Positions 3 to 38,301 of a stretch of 39,721 nucleotides of DNA are shown here, piece after piece. Each line of letters begins with the position of its first letter. Positions within the stretch are counted from its first letter, which is position 1. The stretch spans positions 18,270-57,990 of the forward strand of contig DYGX01000022.1 of NCBI GenBank assembly GCA_020724465.1, read 5' to 3'. The notes beneath the pieces were generated by a model. The model was given only the letters and a program-made list of their open reading frames with translations, did not search any database and was not told the origin of the DNA. Both the position numbers and the translations under genes were made by a program. The stretch comes from Thermoflexus sp. (GTDB lineage: Bacteria > Chloroflexota > Anaerolineae > Aggregatilineales > Aggregatilineaceae).

Positions 3-854
3 GCTCCCTTCCACGACTTCGAGGACGTCGTCCCCGAAGAAGTCAAGCAGGAGCTGGTGGCGATTGCCCAGGGGCTGGGTGACGGCACGATCAGCACCGG
101 CTACGGCGCGGGCGCTGCGCCGGAGACCGAGGTCGGCATGGAGAGCGAGTTCGGCGTCGTGACCGTCGGCATGAACGCCGAGTACCCGCCCTTCGAGTAC
201 GTCGATGAAGACGGCAACATCGTCGGATTCGATGTGGACCTGATGAACGCCATCGCCGAGCAAGCCGGCTTCGATATCGAGTTTGTCAACACCCGCTGGG
301 ACGGCATCTTTGTTGCCCTGCAGTCGGGTGAGTTCGATGTGGTCGCCAGCGCTGCCACCATCACCGAGGAGCGCGAGGAGATCATCGACTTCTCCAACCC
401 GTACTTCAACGCCGGCCAGATGATCGCCGTCAAGGAAGATCGCGCGGATGAGATCCAGACCCCGGACGACCTGGCCGGGCTGCGCGTGGGCGTCCAGTCC
501 GGCACCACCGGCGACATCTGGGCCAGCGAGAACATCCCCGGCGTGCAGATGGTGCGCTACGACGAGATCACGCTCGCCTTCCAGGCGCTGGCGAACGGGG
601 ACATCGACGCCATCGTCAACGATGGCCCGACCAGCGCGGACATCATCGCCAAGAACCCGGAGCTAGGCGTCGTCCTGGTGGGTGACCCCTTCACCGACGA
701 GTTCTACGGCATCGCCGTCCAGCCGGACCTGCCCGAGCTGCTCGAGGCGATCAACAACGCGCTGGCCGAGATCATCGCCAACGGCACCTATCGGGAGATC
801 TACCTGAAGTGGTTCCAAACCGAGCCGCCGTCGGCATTCCAGCCGGCTGACTAG
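3..854 (+). CDS. Amino-acid ABC transporter substrate-binding protein, 5' partial, probable BMP + SBP_bac_3 fusion
   Basis: The reading frame is open to the left edge, so the gene starts outside the window. From about nt 150 it encodes a complete family-3 solute-binding domain (PBP2 fold): the entry motif YPPFEYVDEDG, GFDVDLMNAIA, the RWDGIFVALQSGEFD segment, then the second lobe VGVQSGTTG and ALANGDIDAIVND, ending with the usual IYLKWF. It binds a polar amino acid outside the membrane and delivers it to the permease that follows. The first 50 visible residues (APFHDFEDVVPEEVKQ, then a Gly/Ala linker) do not belong to this fold. They resemble the C-terminal end of basic-membrane-protein (BMP/Med-type) binding proteins, so a two-domain binding protein is inferred. 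The same-strand permease and ATPase downstream support the role. The transporter call is firm; the BMP part needs the upstream sequence. Confidence 0.88.
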   Translation, partial: APFHDFEDVVPEEVKQELVAIAQGLGDGTISTGYGAGAAPETEVGMESEFGVVTVGMNAEYPPFEYVDEDGNIVGFDVDLMNAIAEQAGFDIEFVNTRWDGIFVALQSGEFDVVASAATITEEREEIIDFSNPYFNAGQMIAVKEDRADEIQTPDDLAGLRVGVQSGTTGDIWASENIPGVQMVRYDEITLAFQALANGDIDAIVNDGPTSADIIAKNPELGVVLVGDPFTDEFYGIAVQPDLPELLEAINNALAEIIANGTYREIYLKWFQTEPPSAFQPAD

Positions 855-1111: not shown

Positions 1112-3085
1112 ATGCCAGACGAACGTGATTACCCTGAGGTCCAGCCTGCGCAGCCCATGCCCCCCCAGCACTCGGGCGAGATCTATGACGACCTGCAGTT
1201 TGAAGTCAAAGAGAGCCTCGGCGACCGTCTGATGAACTGGATCGCCGGCCTTCCGTGGTGGGCGATCATCCTCGCCGTGGTGGCCGTTGCCGCGCTCTAC
1301 TCGATGTTCACGTCCGCCGCCTACCGGGACGTGTTGCGCGCCCTTACCGACAACCCTCAAGTTACGACCGAGGATCTGTTCGAGGTCGTGCAGATCGTGG
1401 GCGAGCCAACAATGATCGTTGGCCGCTATGTCGGCGAGTCACAGGATTCGGTCTCGACGGTGATCACCTCTCTGCTGGACGACGTCATCGACAGCGAACT
1501 GGTCCAGCGGGCCGGGTTTCTTGTGCGCGAGGACCCGGCGACTATCACCATCCAGACCGAGAGCGGGCGCGTCACGATCCCGCGCCAGCGCATCACCGCC
1601 ATGGATCCGCCCGACGCGGGGCTGGGTGACAACGTGTCGGTCGAGTATATCGAGCGCGTCACCGTGACCGGAACGCTGACCGCACGTGACGACAAAACGC
1701 TGACGATCCGGACGGTGAACGAGCAGATCGAAACCTTCGACACAGACCGCATCCTCAGCGAAGAGACGACGACCACCCCCGAGGGCGAGGAGCTCGTCCG
1801 CATCGAGCGCGAAGGTCTGAGCTACCGGGGTCGCCTGACGGCGCTCAGCCAGACGGGAATCAGCCTCGTCCAGGAAGACGAGACGCGCGTCGAACTGCGC
1901 CGCGCCGATGTAGCCTTCCTCGCGATCCCAACTCTGACGGTTGCCCTCAACGCGGCAGCCGCCGAGCGCACGATCGGCCCGGACGACGAGGTGCGCATCG
2001 GGTTCGTGCAGGGGACCGACATCACCCGCGCGTTGCAAGAGCTGGACTCGCTGGATGGTATCCCCGTCCCGTTGCGTTACGGCGCCGGGGCGGCGCGCGC
2101 CGCCTTGATCAGCTATGCCGATCTGGCGGCGATGATGGGCGCGGTCGCGGCAGGCGAGCTGGACGCCGCGCTGTATCTCTCCGGCGCCGAAGATCGCCTG
2201 GCGATGGCCGAGTGGGTAGAGAACAACCCGGACGCTGCCGTCGTCCTGCCGACGCCGCCGCGCGAGTGCCAGCGCAACTGCACTGTGACGGTCAAGCTGC
2301 GGGATGATGTGGTCGAAGGGCGCGTCCTCGAACGCACCGCAGACACGATCTCGATCCAGACCGTGGCACCCGAGTTCGTGGTGATCGACCGCGATCAGAT
2401 TCTCGAGAACCGACGCACCGAGCCGGGCGCCTGCGCGCTGAACAATCTGCGCGGCTGCAATGCAGGCATTTTCCTGACCCTGCGCGTGACGTTCATGGCC
2501 TATGGGCTGGCGCTGATCATCGGGCTGTTCTTCGGGCTGATGCGTGTGCAGAAAAACCCCATCCTCTACGCCTTCTCCACGCTCTACGTCGAGGTGGTGC
2601 GCGGCATTCCGCTGCTGGTCATTCTGCTCTACGCCGGGTTCGTCGTCAGCCCGTGGCTGCGCGATAACACCCCGCTGAAGCTCAGCGACGAATGGGAAGC
2701 GGTGCTGGGCCTGTCCTTCGGCTATGGGGCCTTCATCGCCGAGATCTTCCGCGCCGGGATTCAGAGCATCAGCCGCGGGCAGATGGAAGCCGCGCGCAGC
2801 CTGGGCATGAGCTATCCCCAGGCGATGCGCTATGTGGTGCTGCCTCAGGCCGTGCGTGTCGTGCTGCCGCCGTTGGGCAACGACTTCATCGCCATGCTCA
2901 AAGACTCGGCGCTGATCTCCGTTCTGGCGCTGCCAGACCTGCTACAGCTTGGCCGCCTGTATATTTCCCGCACGTTTCGCGCGTTCGAGGGGTATAATAC
3001 GGTCGCGCTGCTGTACCTTCTGATGACGTTGTTCCTCTCGCTGCTCGTCCGCGTGATCGAGCGGCGGACCCGGCTGCCCGGCTAG
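1112..3085 (+). CDS. Amino-acid ABC transporter permease (HisM/GlnP type) with about 400-residue N-terminal insertion
   Basis: The last 200 residues (about 455-655) are a standard polar amino-acid permease: several membrane helices ([18 protein letters not shown], then [15 protein letters not shown]) and the EAA loop [21 protein letters not shown] that docks the ATPase. Ordinary members are 220-300 residues; this one is 657. It begins with a soluble N-terminus, one membrane helix (about 48-66) and then about 390 residues placed outside. That part holds four similar short beta-rich units (about 123-166, 183-214, 235-272, 391-431), each built like xxGxLxxxxxxxIxIQT...VxIxRxxI. Between units three and four (about 290-385) lies a stretch resembling lobe 2 of the family-3 binding proteins ([35 protein letters not shown]). 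The ATG at 1112 is preferred over an in-frame TTG 15 nt upstream. The ATPase gene follows after 17 nt. Confidence 0.9.
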
Positions 3086-3102: not shown

Positions 3103-3867
<765 letters not shown>

Positions 3868-4220: not shown

Positions 4221-5273
4221 ATGGCAGACGAGAAACTGTCGTTTACTCTAACCACCAGCACACCGCAGACCGCCGGCCAGCCCAAACCGCAGGGCGCGCC
4301 GCAGCACGAGAAAGTGATCATCATTGGCTCCGGCCCGGCCGGGTTGACCGCTGCGCTGTACACCGCGCGCGCGCAACTCAACCCGCTGGTGATCGCCGGC
4401 CACGAGCTGGGCGGCCAGGTGTCGCTGACCTATGAAATCGAGAACTATCCCGGCTTCCCCGAGCCGATGACCGGCCAGGAACTAGTCGAGCGCATGAAGG
4501 CCCAGGCCGAGCGCTTCGGCGCGCGCATCAAGATGTTCAGCGCCGTCAGCGAGGTCGATTTCAGCCGGCCGGGCGGCCCGTTCTATCTCAGGACGGACGA
4601 CGGCGACGAGTACGAAGCCGAAGCCGTGATCATCACCGCCGGCGCCACACACCGCCACCTGAACGTGCCGGGCGAGAAGGAGTTCACCGGCAACGGCGTC
4701 AGCTACTGCGCGACCTGCGACGGGTTCTTCTTCCGCGACAAGAACGTGGTGGTCGTCGGCGGGGGCGACAGCGCGCTCGAAGAAGCCCTGTTCCTGACGC
4801 GCTTCGCCCGCCGGGTGGACATCATCCACCGCCGCGACGAGCTGCGCGCCGGAAAGACGCTGCAACGCCGCGCTTTCGCCAACGACAAGATCCACTTCAT
4901 CTGGAACACGGTGGTGGAGAGCATCAACGGCACGCAGCACGTGGAGTCGGTGACGCTGCGCGACGTGAAAACCGGCGAAGTGCGCGACTACCCGACCGAC
5001 GGCGTCTTCATCTTCATCGGTCACGACCCGAACAGCGACCTGTTCGCCGGGCAGCTTGAGCGCGACGCCTTCGGGTACATCATCACCGACCGCGAGATGC
5101 GCACCAGCGTCGAGGGGGTGTTCGCCGCGGGCGAGATTCAGGACCGTCTCTTCCGTCAGGTGGCGACCTCTGTCGGGCAGGGGACAGCCGCGGCCATGAG
5201 CGCCGAGCGGTGGCTGGCCGAGCGCGAAGCCCTGGCCGAGGCCGCCGATCAACAAGAGCCGGTCACTTCCTGA
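4221..5273 (+). CDS. trxB: Thioredoxin-disulfide reductase
   Basis: A flavoprotein that passes electrons from NADPH through FAD and a redox-active cysteine pair to thioredoxin in the cytoplasm. Visible motifs are the FAD dinucleotide fold GSGPAG (36-41), the active-site CATC (163-166), the NADPH fold GGGDSA (180-185), and a C-terminal FAD-contact segment [11 protein letters not shown]. The 350-residue length exceeds the usual 310-320 because of a 30-residue Thr/Gln/Pro-rich N-terminal extension before the first beta strand. The start ATG follows a short GAGG. It appears to be a single-gene unit: a long inverted repeat precedes it and a separate ribosome-binding site serves the glycosidase downstream. 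No thioredoxin gene lies nearby. Confidence 0.95.
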
Positions 5274-5408: not shown

Positions 5409-6953
5409 ATGACAAAGCGTGTATGGCGGGCAAACCCCCTGATCTACGAAATCAACGCCTGGACGTGGCTGCACGCCCTCAGCGAGCGGGCCGGACGGCG
5501 CGTCAGCCTCGGCAGCGTGCCCGACGCCGAGTTGGACGCGCTGGCCGCCTGGGGGCTGGACGCCATCTGGCTGATGGGCGTCTGGGAGCGCAGCCCGGCC
5601 AGCCGCCAGATCGCGCGCGAGCACCCCGACCTGCAAGCCGAATACCGCCGCGCGCTGCCCGATTTCACCCCCGACGACGTCAGCGGATCGCCCTTCGCCA
5701 TCCGCCGCTATGAGGTCGATCCGGCGCTGGGCGGGCGCGAGGAGCTGGCCGCGCTCCGCGAGCGGCTGGCAGCGCGCGACCTGCGCCTGATCCTCGACTT
5801 CGTGCCCAACCACACCAGCCACGACTGCCCCTGGCTGGAAACCAACCCGGAATATTACCTGCACGGCACCGAGCGCGAGCTGGCCGAGCATCCCGATTAC
5901 TTCTTCCGCTATCCGACCGCGGCGGGCGACGTGATCTTCGCCAACGGACGCGACCCGTACTTCCCCGCGTGGACCGACACGGCGCAGCTCAACCCCTTCA
6001 GCCCCCAGCTCCGCCAGCAGGCGATCGCCACCCTGCGCGACATCGCCGCGCAGTGCGACGGCGTGCGCTGCGATATGGCGATGCTCGTCCTGAGCGAGAT
6101 CGTGGCGCAGACCTGGGGCGAGCGCGCCGGCGATCCCCCCGCCGAAGACTACTGGCGCGAGGTGATCCCGGCCATTAAGGCACAGCGGCCCGATTTTCTG
6201 TTCATCGCCGAAGTGTACTGGGATCTGGAGTGGGAGCTTCAGCAGCAGGGTTTCGATTACACCTACGACAAAGAACTATACAACCGGCTGCATCACGCGC
6301 CGGTGGCGGAGATTCGCGCCCATCTTCAGGCCGATCTGAGCTACCAACAGCGCCTGGTGCGCATGATCGAGAACCACGACGAGGCGCGCGCAGCGACCTC
6401 GCTCGGCGGGCCGCGCTCGCTGGCCGCTGCCGCGCTGGTCGTCACGTTGCCCGGCGCGACCCTGCTGCACGAGGGGCAGTTCCAGGGCCACCGCGTCAAG
6501 CTGCCGGTACAGCTTCGCCGCCGCCCGCACGAGCGCGATAATCGGGCGATTGAGGCGTTTTACCGCGCCCTGCTGGCCGAAGCGACCCAACCGATCTACC
6601 ATGAGGGTGAGTGGATCTTGCGCCAGGTCGAACCGGGGACGGACGGCGCCACGCACCACAACCTGATCGCCTACACCTGGCACCTGGGCGAGGAGCGCCG
6701 CCTGATCGTCATCAATTATTCCGGCGCCCCGGCTCAGGGCGTCGTGCCCCTGCCCGATTTCGCGCTTGACGGGCAGCGCTGGACCCTGCGCGACGTGCTG
6801 CAGCGGACCAGCACGGCCCGGCCCGGCGACGATCTGGCACAGACCGGCGTGTCGCTCGAACTGGCGCCCTGGCAGGCGGCCATCATCGCGCTGCTGCCGC
6901 GGACGGACCGCATCCCCGCGCCGCAGCCCGGCACCGCTCAACGCCCCACGTAG
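5409..6953 (+). CDS. Alpha-amylase family (GH13) glycosidase
   Basis: A TIM-barrel glycoside hydrolase or transglycosidase of 514 residues. The conserved GH13 regions are readable: region I DFVPNH (130-135), region II GVRCDMAML with the nucleophile Asp222, region III FIAEVYWD with the acid/base Glu268, and region IV ENHDE with Asp324. A C-terminal beta domain follows (about 420-505). There is no signal peptide, so it probably acts on cytoplasmic alpha-glucans or sugars. The enzyme reads YEINAWTWL at its start, as in the group of stand-alone bacterial GH13 proteins without a firm substrate. The ATG at 5409 has GGAG about 8 nt upstream and is preferred over an upstream in-frame start at 5289. 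Its 3' end overlaps the opposite-strand kinase gene by 16 nt. Confidence 0.9.
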   Translation: MTKRVWRANPLIYEINAWTWLHALSERAGRRVSLGSVPDAELDALAAWGLDAIWLMGVWERSPASRQIAREHPDLQAEYRRALPDFTPDDVSGSPFAIRRYEVDPALGGREELAALRERLAARDLRLILDFVPNHTSHDCPWLETNPEYYLHGTERELAEHPDYFFRYPTAAGDVIFANGRDPYFPAWTDTAQLNPFSPQLRQQAIATLRDIAAQCDGVRCDMAMLVLSEIVAQTWGERAGDPPAEDYWREVIPAIKAQRPDFLFIAEVYWDLEWELQQQGFDYTYDKELYNRLHHAPVAEIRAHLQADLSYQQRLVRMIENHDEARAATSLGGPRSLAAAALVVTLPGATLLHEGQFQGHRVKLPVQLRRRPHERDNRAIEAFYRALLAEATQPIYHEGEWILRQVEPGTDGATHHNLIAYTWHLGEERRLIVINYSGAPAQGVVPLPDFALDGQRWTLRDVLQRTSTARPGDDLAQTGVSLELAPWQAAIIALLPRTDRIPAPQPGTAQRPT

Positions 6954-34978: not shown

Positions 34979-35280
34979 TCCCCGCGCCCGTGCCAGGCCG
35001 CTCGCCAGCGCCCGCCGGCCATTCCCCAATCGTCACGCGGACGTAGGGTGGTGGCCTAGCGGGCGTTTATTTCCGCGTGTTAGAATCCACACAACCGAAG
35101 TGGAGCAGCCGTTACCGCCAACACATGCGGCTGTCCACCCGGCGCCGGGCCGTCTGGACTCGCGTTTATCGGAAAGCGCGGCCCGCATGCCAGAGCGAAT
35201 GAGCCTGGATTGGTAGCAGTGCGAGATAGTAATCGGAATCAGCGGCGGGGCACATGCCCTGGCCGGGAGAACTCAACGTG
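34979..35280 (+). promoter_or_regulatory. Leader and promoter region of the PBP gene
   Basis: A 302-nt gap. It holds an extended -10 TGTTAGAAT (35078-35086) without a recognisable -35 and, downstream, a hairpin with arms CAGCCG and CGGCTG (about 35107-35132). If the -10 is used, the leader is about 190 nt. No ORF is convincing. Confidence 0.4.
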
Positions 35281-38200
35281 ATGAATTCGCCTCGTAAGCC
35301 TCAGCCAGCGCCGAATCACCGGCCGGCACTCCGTCGCGCCGCGCGCCGCCCGGCGAAAGGCCCGCGCCCGGCCCGTGCGGCGGCCTATCCACCGCTGCCC
35401 GCGTCCCCCGGCTATCCGGCGCCGCCCATGCCGCCTGGCCCGGTGCCTGGCGCGGCTCCGCGTCGCGCGCGCCGTGGCCGCCGCCGCGGGATGGCGCTTG
35501 GCCCCGGGATCGTGCTCGGCTGCATGGGCATCCTGGCCGTGACCGTGATTAGTTTCCTGGTGACGGCCTGGCTGGTCTATGACCACTACAGCAACAAGCT
35601 CGAAGAGCAGATCACCCGGCTGGGGACGCTGGCCGATTCGCCCTCGTTCGAAACGACCGTCATCTACGACCGAAACGGGCAAGAGCTATACCAGGTCTTC
35701 GACGAGGGCCTGCGCACCCGCATCCCGCTCGCGCAGATCCCGCAGCACGTCATCGACGCGACCATCTCGATTGAGGACAACACGTTCTACCACAACGAGG
35801 GTATTGACATCCCCAGCATCATCCGTGCCGCCGCCCAATACGTGCGCTACGGCTATATCGTGTCCGGCGGCAGCACGATCACCCAGCAGTTGATCCGCAA
35901 TACCTTGTTCGACGAGCAATATCGCAGCGAGCAAACGCTCAACCGCAAGATCGACGAGGCGCTGCTGGCGATGATCCTGACCCAGAAGATGGGCAAGGAT
36001 CAGATCCTGGAGATGTACCTGAACGAGATCTACTACGGCAATCTGGCGTATGGCATCGAGGCCGCGGCGCAGACGTACTTTGGCAAGCCCGCCGCCGAAC
36101 TGACGCTGGGCGAGGCCGCGCTGCTGGCCAGCCTGCCCCAGGCGCCCGCCGATCTCGATCCGCTCAACCCCGACCCAAGCGTCCAGCGGCGCGTGATGGA
36201 GCGGCGCCGGCTGGTGCTGGACCTGATGGTGAAGGAAGGCTACATCACTCAGGCCGAGGCCAGCGCCGCCTACGCCGAGCCGTTGAACTACGCGCATCGC
36301 TCCATCCGCCTGGACCGCGCGCCGCACTTTGTCGTCTACGCGCAGGACGCGCTCGAAACGCTGCTGGTGCGCGAGCTGGGCTTTAGCCAGGAGCAGATCC
36401 GCAAAGTGATCGCGGGGGGCGGTCTGCGCGTCTATACCACGCTGGACATGGACTACCAGCGGCTGGCGGAAGACATCGCCCGGCGGCAGGTCTCGCAGCT
36501 CAAAGCCGCGCACAATATGAACAACGCCTCGGTGATCGTCATGCGGCCGGACACCGGCGAGATTCTGGCGATGGTGGGCAGCGTCAACTACGACGACGAA
36601 TCGATTGACGGCAATGTCAACATGACGACCGCCGCCCGCCAGCCCGGCAGCGCGATGAAGCCCTTCACCTACGCGGCGGCCCTTGAGAAGGGCTGGTCAA
36701 CCGCCCAGGTCATCTGGGATACCGAGGTGCGCATCGGCGTGCCCGGCCAGCAACCCTACGTGCCGGTCAACTACGACCGCTCGTTCCACGGCCCGGTGCG
36801 CCTGCGCGAGGCGCTCGCCAACTCGTACAACATCCCGGCTGTGCAGACCCTGCGCTTCGTGGGAGTGGACTATCTGCTGTGGATGATGAGCCGGGTGGGC
36901 GTCACCAGCCTGGGCAACGACGCGTCACACTACGGCCTGTCGCTGACGCTGGGCGGCGGCGAAGTCTCGCCCCTGGAACTGACGACGGCCTATTCCGTCC
37001 TGGCGAACGGCGGGGTCTACGTGCCACACCGGGCGATCCGGTGCATCACCAATTCGAGCAACGAGATCCTCTACGAATACCAGCAGAGCTGTCCGCCCGG
37101 CGCTCGCCTGACCGAGCGCTCGCGCACTTTCAACGCGGACGGGCGCCAGGTGCTCGACCCGCGCATCGCGTTCGTGCTGAGCGATATCCTGGCCGACAAC
37201 GCGGCGCGCACCCCGGCAATGGGCGCCAACAGCCCGCTCAACACGCCCGGCCTGCCGACCTCGGTCAAGACCGGCACCACCAACGACTTCCGCGACAACT
37301 GGACGGTCGGCTACACGCGCAATATCGCCGTGGGCGTGTGGGCCGGCAACACGGACAACGCCGCGATGGTCAACATCTCCGGCCTGGACGGCGCGGCCCC
37401 GATCTGGCACGACGTGATCACGGGCATCTACGCCAACCAGACTTTGCTCGACAGGCTGGGCCAGCGCCTGCCGGATGACGCGCACCTTCAGCCGCCGGGC
37501 GGACTCAGCCGGCGCCAGTTGTGCAATATCTCGCGCACGGCGCTGCGCGACCCGGCCCTGAGCTGCACGCCCGGCCCGTTCGAGTGGATGTTCGACAGCC
37601 CGCCCGCCGCGCCGGACGCGTCGGGCAACCTGGTGCCCCAACCGCCGACGCCGCCGCCGCAGACGTCCGCCAACGGGCCACAGCCGGTCGAGATCGAGCC
37701 GGGCCTGATCCGCGTGGCGGTTTATCCCGTCGCGCCGGAGCTGGCGAACGCCATCGCCGCGGCGGACACCAGCGGCAAGACGGTGCCGCCGCGCTATTGC
37801 CAGGTGCCGATCGAGGTTGCCAACCAGGTTCCGGGCGTGCAGGAGCAGCTTTTCATCGCGCCGCCGCCCGACCCCGACGACGCCTTCTACGCGCGGCGCT
37901 GGGCGCAGGCCGCCGGAGTCGCGATTCTGCCCCAGTACGCCTGCAACGAGCAGATGCTCTCGATGCCGCCCGGCGGGGGCAGCCCGGTCGTGGTGGCGAA
38001 CATCGTCTCGCCCACGCCCGGCCAGGAGATCCACGCCTCGCAGCCCATCGACATCATCGGCAGCGCGATGTTCACACCGCAGCAGGCCGAGTACTACAAG
38101 GTCGAGATTCGGGGCGGGCCGTTTGCGGAGTTCCAGACGATCAACGATATCCACCGCGAGGGTGTGGCGAACGGCGTGCTGGAGCGGATCGGCCCTTACG

Positions 38201-38301
38201 CGCTGCCGCCCGGCGAGTACGTGCTGCAACTGGTGATCGTGGGCAAGGATGGCAACTGGCTCCAGCAGCCGTACACGGTCCCCTTCCGCGTGACGGGCTG
38301 A
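35281..38301 (+). CDS. Class A penicillin-binding protein (transglycosylase/transpeptidase)
   Basis: A 1006-residue bifunctional cell-wall synthase. A basic, Pro/Arg-rich cytoplasmic tail (1-72) and one membrane helix (about 75-100) precede the GT51 transglycosylase domain: EDNTFYHNEGIDIPSIIRAA with catalytic Glu165, SGGSTITQQL and RKIDEALLAMILTQKMGKDQILEMYLNEIYYG. The transpeptidase domain has Ser457-x-x-Lys460 (SAMK), Ser515-Tyr-Asn517 and Lys663-Thr-Gly665. After a Pro-rich linker and a Cys-containing region comes an Ig-like domain (about 900-1006, IVSPTPGQEIHASQPIDIIGSAMF, GEYVLQLVIVG). ATG 35281 has GGGAGA at spacing 11; GTG 35278 and ATG 35254 are alternatives. It is followed by the inverted array that separates it from rsgA. 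Confidence 0.95.
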   Translation: MNSPRKPQPAPNHRPALRRAARRPAKGPRPARAAAYPPLPASPGYPAPPMPPGPVPGAAPRRARRGRRRGMALGPGIVLGCMGILAVTVISFLVTAWLVYDHYSNKLEEQITRLGTLADSPSFETTVIYDRNGQELYQVFDEGLRTRIPLAQIPQHVIDATISIEDNTFYHNEGIDIPSIIRAAAQYVRYGYIVSGGSTITQQLIRNTLFDEQYRSEQTLNRKIDEALLAMILTQKMGKDQILEMYLNEIYYGNLAYGIEAAAQTYFGKPAAELTLGEAALLASLPQAPADLDPLNPDPSVQRRVMERRRLVLDLMVKEGYITQAEASAAYAEPLNYAHRSIRLDRAPHFVVYAQDALETLLVRELGFSQEQIRKVIAGGGLRVYTTLDMDYQRLAEDIARRQVSQLKAAHNMNNASVIVMRPDTGEILAMVGSVNYDDESIDGNVNMTTAARQPGSAMKPFTYAAALEKGWSTAQVIWDTEVRIGVPGQQPYVPVNYDRSFHGPVRLREALANSYNIPAVQTLRFVGVDYLLWMMSRVGVTSLGNDASHYGLSLTLGGGEVSPLELTTAYSVLANGGVYVPHRAIRCITNSSNEILYEYQQSCPPGARLTERSRTFNADGRQVLDPRIAFVLSDILADNAARTPAMGANSPLNTPGLPTSVKTGTTNDFRDNWTVGYTRNIAVGVWAGNTDNAAMVNISGLDGAAPIWHDVITGIYANQTLLDRLGQRLPDDAHLQPPGGLSRRQLCNISRTALRDPALSCTPGPFEWMFDSPPAAPDASGNLVPQPPTPPPQTSANGPQPVEIEPGLIRVAVYPVAPELANAIAAADTSGKTVPPRYCQVPIEVANQVPGVQEQLFIAPPPDPDDAFYARRWAQAAGVAILPQYACNEQMLSMPPGGGSPVVVANIVSPTPGQEIHASQPIDIIGSAMFTPQQAEYYKVEIRGGPFAEFQTINDIHREGVANGVLERIGPYALPPGEYVLQLVIVGKDGNWLQQPYTVPFRVTG

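Follow-up and report, generated by a model that had tools for sequence, protein, structure and literature searches.

An amino-acid ABC permease of Thermoflexus with a predicted substrate-binding-protein lobe set among small beta units

The stretch of DNA analysed here (the window, 39,721 nucleotides of contig DYGX01000022.1 from Thermoflexus sp.) begins within an operon for an ABC importer. A gene for a family-3 substrate-binding protein (SBP), recognized by PF00497, lies upstream of a permease gene, and an ATPase gene (PF00005) follows, all on the same strand (Pfam; Table 1). The permease is encoded by a single uninterrupted open frame of 657 amino acids that starts with the ATG at 1112, an in-frame TTG being found upstream at 1097. 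The 5′ part of the SBP gene falls outside the window and is interrupted by an N run just before the window start (L136, assembly). Five other permease matches in the Thermoflexus genome each begin at residue 438 or later, so that the 657-residue protein is the sole full-length copy. As the operon holds a single permease gene, the channel is presumably homodimeric. Pfam also identifies, further along the window, a pyridine nucleotide-disulphide oxidoreductase (4221-5273), an alpha-amylase-family protein (5418-6953) and a protein with Transgly and Transpeptidase domains (35254-38301).

Table 1. Features of the permease gene and its operon (window coordinates; residues are those of the permease).
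Feature	Position	Strand	Evidence
SBP (family 3), C-terminal part, same operon	3..854	+	PF00497; upstream sequence
Permease gene with lobe-bearing extracytoplasmic insert, 657 aa	1112..3085	+	Open frame; Pfam/NCBIfam; family architecture in 16/18 genomes
Extra N-terminal helix TM0, about residues 44-66	1241..1309	+	Hydropathy; similar helix in insert-less L055
Beta unit 1, second part, residues 134-161	1511..1594	+	Iterated profile (partial); strands in AlphaFold2 models
Beta unit 2, residues 175-215	1634..1756	+	Iterated profile; AlphaFold2
Beta unit 3, residues 229-267	1796..1912	+	Iterated profile; AlphaFold2
Predicted lobe 2 of family-3 SBP, residues 272-386, lobe 1 absent	1925..2269	+	hhalign against SBPs; Foldseek and VIA against PDB
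Cysteine pair C386/C390	2267..2281	+	Both conserved without exception in the alignment of 16 proteins
Beta unit 4, residues 392-431	2285..2404	+	Iterated profile; AlphaFold2
CALNNLRGC loop directly before TM1 (C441/C449)	2432..2458	+	Conserved in barrel-bearing permeases
Permease core, residues 452-657	2465..3082	+	PF00528, TIGR01726
ATPase subunit, operon of the permease	3103..3867	+	PF00005

By its core and its operon, the protein is a type I polar amino-acid ABC permease. The sole Pfam match over its cut-off is PF00528 (BPD_transp_1) at residues 468-654, with 88.9 bits for a cut-off of 26.4, while TIGR01726 (HEQRo_perm_3TM) of NCBIfam reaches 69.5 bits at 450-548 for a cut-off of 42.2. None of the named transporter equivalogs of NCBIfam (GlnP, EhuC, cystine and others) reaches its cut-off, the best-scoring being EhuC, with 136.7 bits against 196.95. 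An EIIC-GAT match at 44-137 (Pfam, E 0.02) was below threshold and was taken as spurious. A simple hydropathy scan, which detects only some of the core helices, places one helix at about residues 44-62 and the next at 459-477. Between the first helix and the core there are about 385 residues, in keeping with the first-pass annotation, which had described an oversized permease with about 390 extra residues. In an insert-less relative of 283 residues, L055, a similar first helix is followed directly by the core. We place the insert outside the membrane from the known topology of the family. The cysteine-flanked loop CALNNLRGC, or a close variant of it, stands before TM1 in all 25 barrel-bearing permeases that were scanned; it was not seen in L055. 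An assembly or frame error joining two genes, which the first-pass annotation had kept in mind, is excluded by the same architecture being present in 16 of the 18 genomes of the family, and GC3 along the gene (0.78-0.88) was counted against it as well.

An iterated profile recovers the four similar beta-rich units that had been noticed by eye, with domain E-values from 7e-10 to 3e-16, which are optimistic because unit 4 served as the seed of the profile and the other units were taken in later. Without any profile, the strongest internal repeat joins units 2 and 4. Over the Thermoflexus genome the profile matches the permease gene only, at three places (units 2-4). Like the small SH3/Sm/OB-like barrels (Hfq, the C-terminal domain of RimP, S1, EF-P, NusA), the units are small and beta-stranded, a short helical turn preceding their final strand, but the several family matches that they produce are weak, and none is clear enough to name a family. 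They also differ from those barrels in being arranged in tandem, in their presumed extracytoplasmic location and in having C-x(6-8)-C loops as joints in many relatives. In Pfam, 46 units gave weak, mixed matches to 20 families, the best being Hfq_1 (E 0.0018, in 2 units) and Myosin_N (E 0.0037, in 12). The NCBIfam matches of the same units were all weak: Lepto_7_Nterm (E 0.00025, in 16), LIC_13076_fam (0.00027, in 6) and LA_3334_fam (0.0018, in 5), three small Leptospira family models of unknown function, together with TIGR02603 (putative heme-binding; E 6.5e-5, in 3 of the 46). Poly-ubiquitin, which headed the PDB-sequence rows for the units through the summing of sub-threshold repeats, was judged spurious. 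With the barrel model, Foldseek returned no match at E <= 0.001, listing mixed barrels with a best E of 4.5e-3, and VIA gave a best Z of 6.5, its rows lying mostly over unit 1.

It is between units 3 and 4 that the first-pass annotation had seen, again by eye, a likeness to lobe 2 of the adjacent SBP, and sequence profiles and predicted structure agree in upholding it. When the lobe region of the family (residues 283-388) was compared by hhalign with 52 SBP domains, the window's own SBP among them, the match had a probability of 91.8% and a score of 44.9, spanning residues 326-383. This is above all shuffles: the best of 60 column shuffles scored 24.7, and the best of 200 further ones 20.7 (maximum over the 260, 24.7), although these controls, like several of the E-values given here, treat related sequences as independent. 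The reversed lobe scored 13.1, the lobe against the ATPase family 13.5, and the barrels against the SBPs 12.5. With the whole ectodomain as query (85.1%, score 47.0) the SBPs match at the same place as with the lobe. Among the three motif pairs proposed earlier, the second and third fall within this profile alignment; the first finds support solely in the structural alignment, whose range (272-386) takes it in.

We also ran a lobe profile over the six-frame ORFs of the loci (4,451 in all), a set that is rich in SBPs, the loci being importer operons, yet is mostly made of other proteins. Below E 0.1 it found, besides the lobe-bearing permeases, SBP ORFs only, and their best stretches all begin at profile positions 42-49. 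For single SBPs the whole-sequence E-values are modest, about 0.001-0.09, and the best, 3e-8, sums two SBP domains. Standard family models do not see the relationship: searched with PF00497, the permease gives nothing up to E 1, and none of the 16 lobe sequences is hit up to E 10 within what the HMMER filters let through. Pfam matches no family on the window's own lobe sequence, and on the lobes of the 16 members it matches four families, each in a single member, with NMT1_2 the best at E 0.0092. Against PDB sequences, the lobe profile has as its best row the SBP-type sensor EvgS, at a non-significant E of 0.53. Read ungapped, the N-D that follows DAIV in the SBP, with an aspartate that has a role in ligand binding, stands opposite Y-L in the permease lobe; the profile alignment is gapped there, which makes this a weak point.

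The ectodomain (residues 66-452) was modelled with AlphaFold2 from 16 sequences of a single family, with a mean pLDDT of 73 and a pTM of 0.51. Averaged over ten residues, pLDDT lies at 86-95 for the greater part of unit 3, the lobe and unit 4, and at 65-92 in unit 2. It falls to 66-67 at model positions 241-260, within the lobe, and below 50 at 16-63 and 365-387, so that the first part of the ectodomain (16-63) is poorly predicted. Foldseek found 13 matches in the PDB at E up to 0.001. Amino-acid-binding proteins or domains fill ranks 1-24, mostly the substrate-binding domains (SBDs) of GlnPQ and their relatives, HisG coming at rank 25. As the alignments extend past the lobe, the superpositions are loose, with rmsd 5.3-10.2 Å over 126-183 columns throughout the top 50. 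VIA fits more tightly, placing model positions 207-321, that is protein residues 272-386, onto residues 95-191 of 4zv1 with Z 10.4 (2.4 Å, 90 aligned); 1wdn (GlnBP) follows with Z 8.9 (2.7 Å, 88 aligned) and 6gpm, the isolated domain 2 of TmArgBP (92 residues), with Z 8.6 (2.8 Å, 83 aligned). Models that lack a clear match usually attain a Z of 7 to 8, which these top rows exceed only moderately; Z is still 8.4 at rank 50, and the best 50 rows cover model positions 206-327 only. As the VIA fit agrees with the sequence profile, we regard the identity of the lobe as settled. The insert is thus predicted to hold a complete lobe 2, without lobe 1, since PF00497 has no match and the best VIA rows are confined to this stretch. 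The structure prediction proposed earlier as a check on the insert has accordingly returned an SBP lobe 2, not an unrelated fold. The lobe shares its fold with lobe 2 of free family-3 SBPs over 83-90 residues; it differs from them in lacking lobe 1, in having barrels on both flanks and in belonging to a permease chain.

The full ectodomain is present in 16 of the 18 genomes of the family, the two in which it was not shown being G013 and G016, 87% and 80% complete. Across the order, the ectodomain query found matches in 22 of 154 genomes, in 6 of which these are confined to a short end stretch. In a class-wide search that scored at most 12 candidates per genome, and may therefore miss weak relatives, the lobe profile matched 2 of 396 genomes, both from the window's family. 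Over the 16 aligned members, 10 of 106 columns of the lobe region are invariant. For five pairs, dN/dS (our own Nei-Gojobori script; three of the five pairs share sequences) was 0.119, 0.220, 0.219, 0.154 and 0.126 in the lobe, and 0.013, 0.057, 0.066, 0.010 and 0.050 in the core. The lobe evolves faster than the core, about as fast as the barrels, yet under clear purifying selection. It had been called a remnant, a word that does not suit a full-length lobe under such selection.

Relatives vary widely at this place in the chain. Of 80 named ones, 22 have at least one beta unit, and 13 of the 22 also have the lobe; in 11 others the insert, of about 134-245 residues, shows no detectable units, and the remaining 47 have about 10-66 residues there, these lengths being approximate as the insert start was set by a simple motif. 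The profile finds one unit in L048, two in L058, L065, L133 and L134, three in L050-L054 and L059, four in the lobe-bearing proteins and ten in L143. Such counts are lower bounds in some relatives: L050 has six cysteine loops, hence five intervals, for three units found. The protein with ten detectable units (L143:972-3659) is a permease of 896 residues in which several C-x(6,7)-C loops stand between units. Unit-less inserts stand at the equivalent place in L060-L064, L066-L068, L073, L075 and L076; that of L061 has weak Ig-like matches (Big_13, Big_3_5).

In L050-L054, which belong to other families, the insert is equally long and has no lobe; more generally, the lobe was not detected in the barrel-bearing relatives from other families of the order. 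Gain of the lobe in the ancestor of the family is for this reason the simplest reading, and the barrel array appears to be older than the lobe. We infer that a lobe 2 of the kind found in the operon's own SBP was inserted once, in that ancestor. Of the SBP_bac_3 ORFs of the Thermoflexus genome, it is the neighbouring SBP that obtains the top score with the lobe profile (16.2 bits; next 11.6, the rest at most 5.3), and hhalign gives the lobe 43.2 with the SBPs of the family and 41.5 with those of other families. The preference for the operon's own SBP amounts to a few bits, and other families do nearly as well, so that within the SBP clade it is no more than a candidate donor.

In several relatives the partner proteins are themselves composite; what follows holds for the loci named, many SBP ORFs running off contig ends or containing N. 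At L039:1226-4798 the operon's SBP gene encodes a single chain of two binding-protein types, in which a family-3 SBP domain accompanies two BMP (PnrA-like) stretches and the linkers are acidic and of low complexity; Pfam finds BMP together with SBP3 in L040. The fusion of BMP and SBP that the first-pass annotation had suggested therefore exists in these two relatives; in the window's own SBP, over the part of this incomplete gene that lies in the window, Pfam finds no BMP match ahead of the SBP domain. L042:1-2058 has a Fasciclin (FAS1) domain and two nearly identical family-3 SBP domains, L044 has two SBP3, and only SBP3 is seen in L140, read across a run of N, and in L036, truncated at the start of its contig. 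Elsewhere in the Thermoflexus genome, a 635-residue ORF (L147:1144-3048) bears two family-3 SBP stretches. Tandem SBPs also adjoin insert-less permeases (L083, L085 and L086, for example), which implies that the insert is not required for working with a large SBP; for the same reason we gave up the idea that insert size and SBP size go together.

Two known systems help to situate this architecture. The P2 loop of MalF, an Ig-like domain, sits at a different place in its chain and, unlike the present insert, is without an SBP lobe. The likeness is that of a large extracytoplasmic part in a type I permease (P2 in MalFGK2, and here some 385 residues between TM0 and the core), P2 being coupled to the binding protein MalE (PMC8134467). 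In GlnPQ, complete SBDs in tandem are fused to the permease and compete for docking (PMC8025302). Our permease is similar in its amino-acid type I core and in having SBP-derived material outside, in the permease chain and before the core; it differs in having a single lobe 2 within a barrel array, the SBP being encoded by a separate gene. A permease of the GlnPQ type has at least one complete SBD in its chain, while here PF00497 has no match and barrel units flank the lobe. The protein may thus be placed between MalF, for its accessory ectodomain, and GlnP, for its SBP-derived material. The open-access literature that we searched yielded no case of a permease ectodomain with just one SBP lobe built into it.

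Type I importers take their SBP on the outer face of the channel. We would see in this system a type I amino-acid ABC importer with its extracytoplasmic part enlarged between TM0 and TM1, in which the barrel array arose first and a lobe 2 was later inserted once, in the ancestor of the family. The array would stand over the channel mouth. Alone, the copy of lobe 2 is not expected to clamp an amino acid; it may help to hold, orient or recognize the operon's SBP, in a role comparable to that of the P2 loop. As a whole, this is the best explanation that we can offer, and we hold it tentatively. As for the lobe itself, docking or holding of the operon's SBP is its most likely function, and we prefer it with moderate confidence, because the protein combines a MalF-like accessory ectodomain with GlnP-like SBP-derived material that is reduced to the lobe which, in the TmArgBP case, does not bind ligand by itself.

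The main rival, possible if rather unlikely, makes the insert a structural spacer only, barrels and lobe stiffening or lengthening a stalk through the cell envelope, with the lobe as a stable block devoid of any binding role. The wide range of insert sizes in relatives, from none to ten units, speaks for it, as does the existence of an isolated, folded SBP lobe 2 (6gpm, TmArgBP domain 2). The invariant lobe columns (10/106) and dN/dS of 0.12-0.22 speak against it weakly, since they would also fit a purely structural domain. A composite sensor is less probable still. In it, lobe 2 and another surface, be it a neighbouring barrel or lobe 1 of the operon's SBP, would form a pocket and report substrate to the channel, which would agree with a complete and conserved lobe and with the extra binding domains supplied by the SBP gene of relatives. 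However, the permease has no lobe 1 (no PF00497 match at E up to 1, best 50 VIA rows on model 206-327 only), and the Y-L opposite the N-D of the SBP, for what this ungapped reading is worth, points the same way. In TmArgBP, the one SBP that we found with its lobes tested apart, only lobe 1 (D1) binds the ligand in isolation and lobe 2 does not (PMC7589609); with lobe 1 absent here, this is what makes a sensor less likely than docking.

Two further readings have a much smaller chance. The permease might be a relic of a GlnP-like one, with a full SBD fused at its front and lobe 1 later lost. SBD1 and SBD2 of GlnPQ are among the best Foldseek rows, and tandem SBDs fused to a permease are documented (PMC8025302), but barrel-bearing relatives outside the family show no detectable lobe, and there is no sign of decay. 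It is just as improbable that we deal with a split receptor, where docking would bring the permease's lobe 2 together with lobe 1 of the operon's SBP, or put it in the place of that SBP's lobe 2, the channel itself thus helping to close and open the amino-acid clamp.

Full substrate-binding domains fused to permeases were known already. If the lobe considered here aids docking, as we prefer to think, it would be a natural means of testing SBP recognition by a type I importer, through a part that could be deleted while leaving the channel intact. Ready comparisons come from a graded series of relatives, with no insert or with 1, 2, 3, 4 or 10 units found, with and without the lobe.
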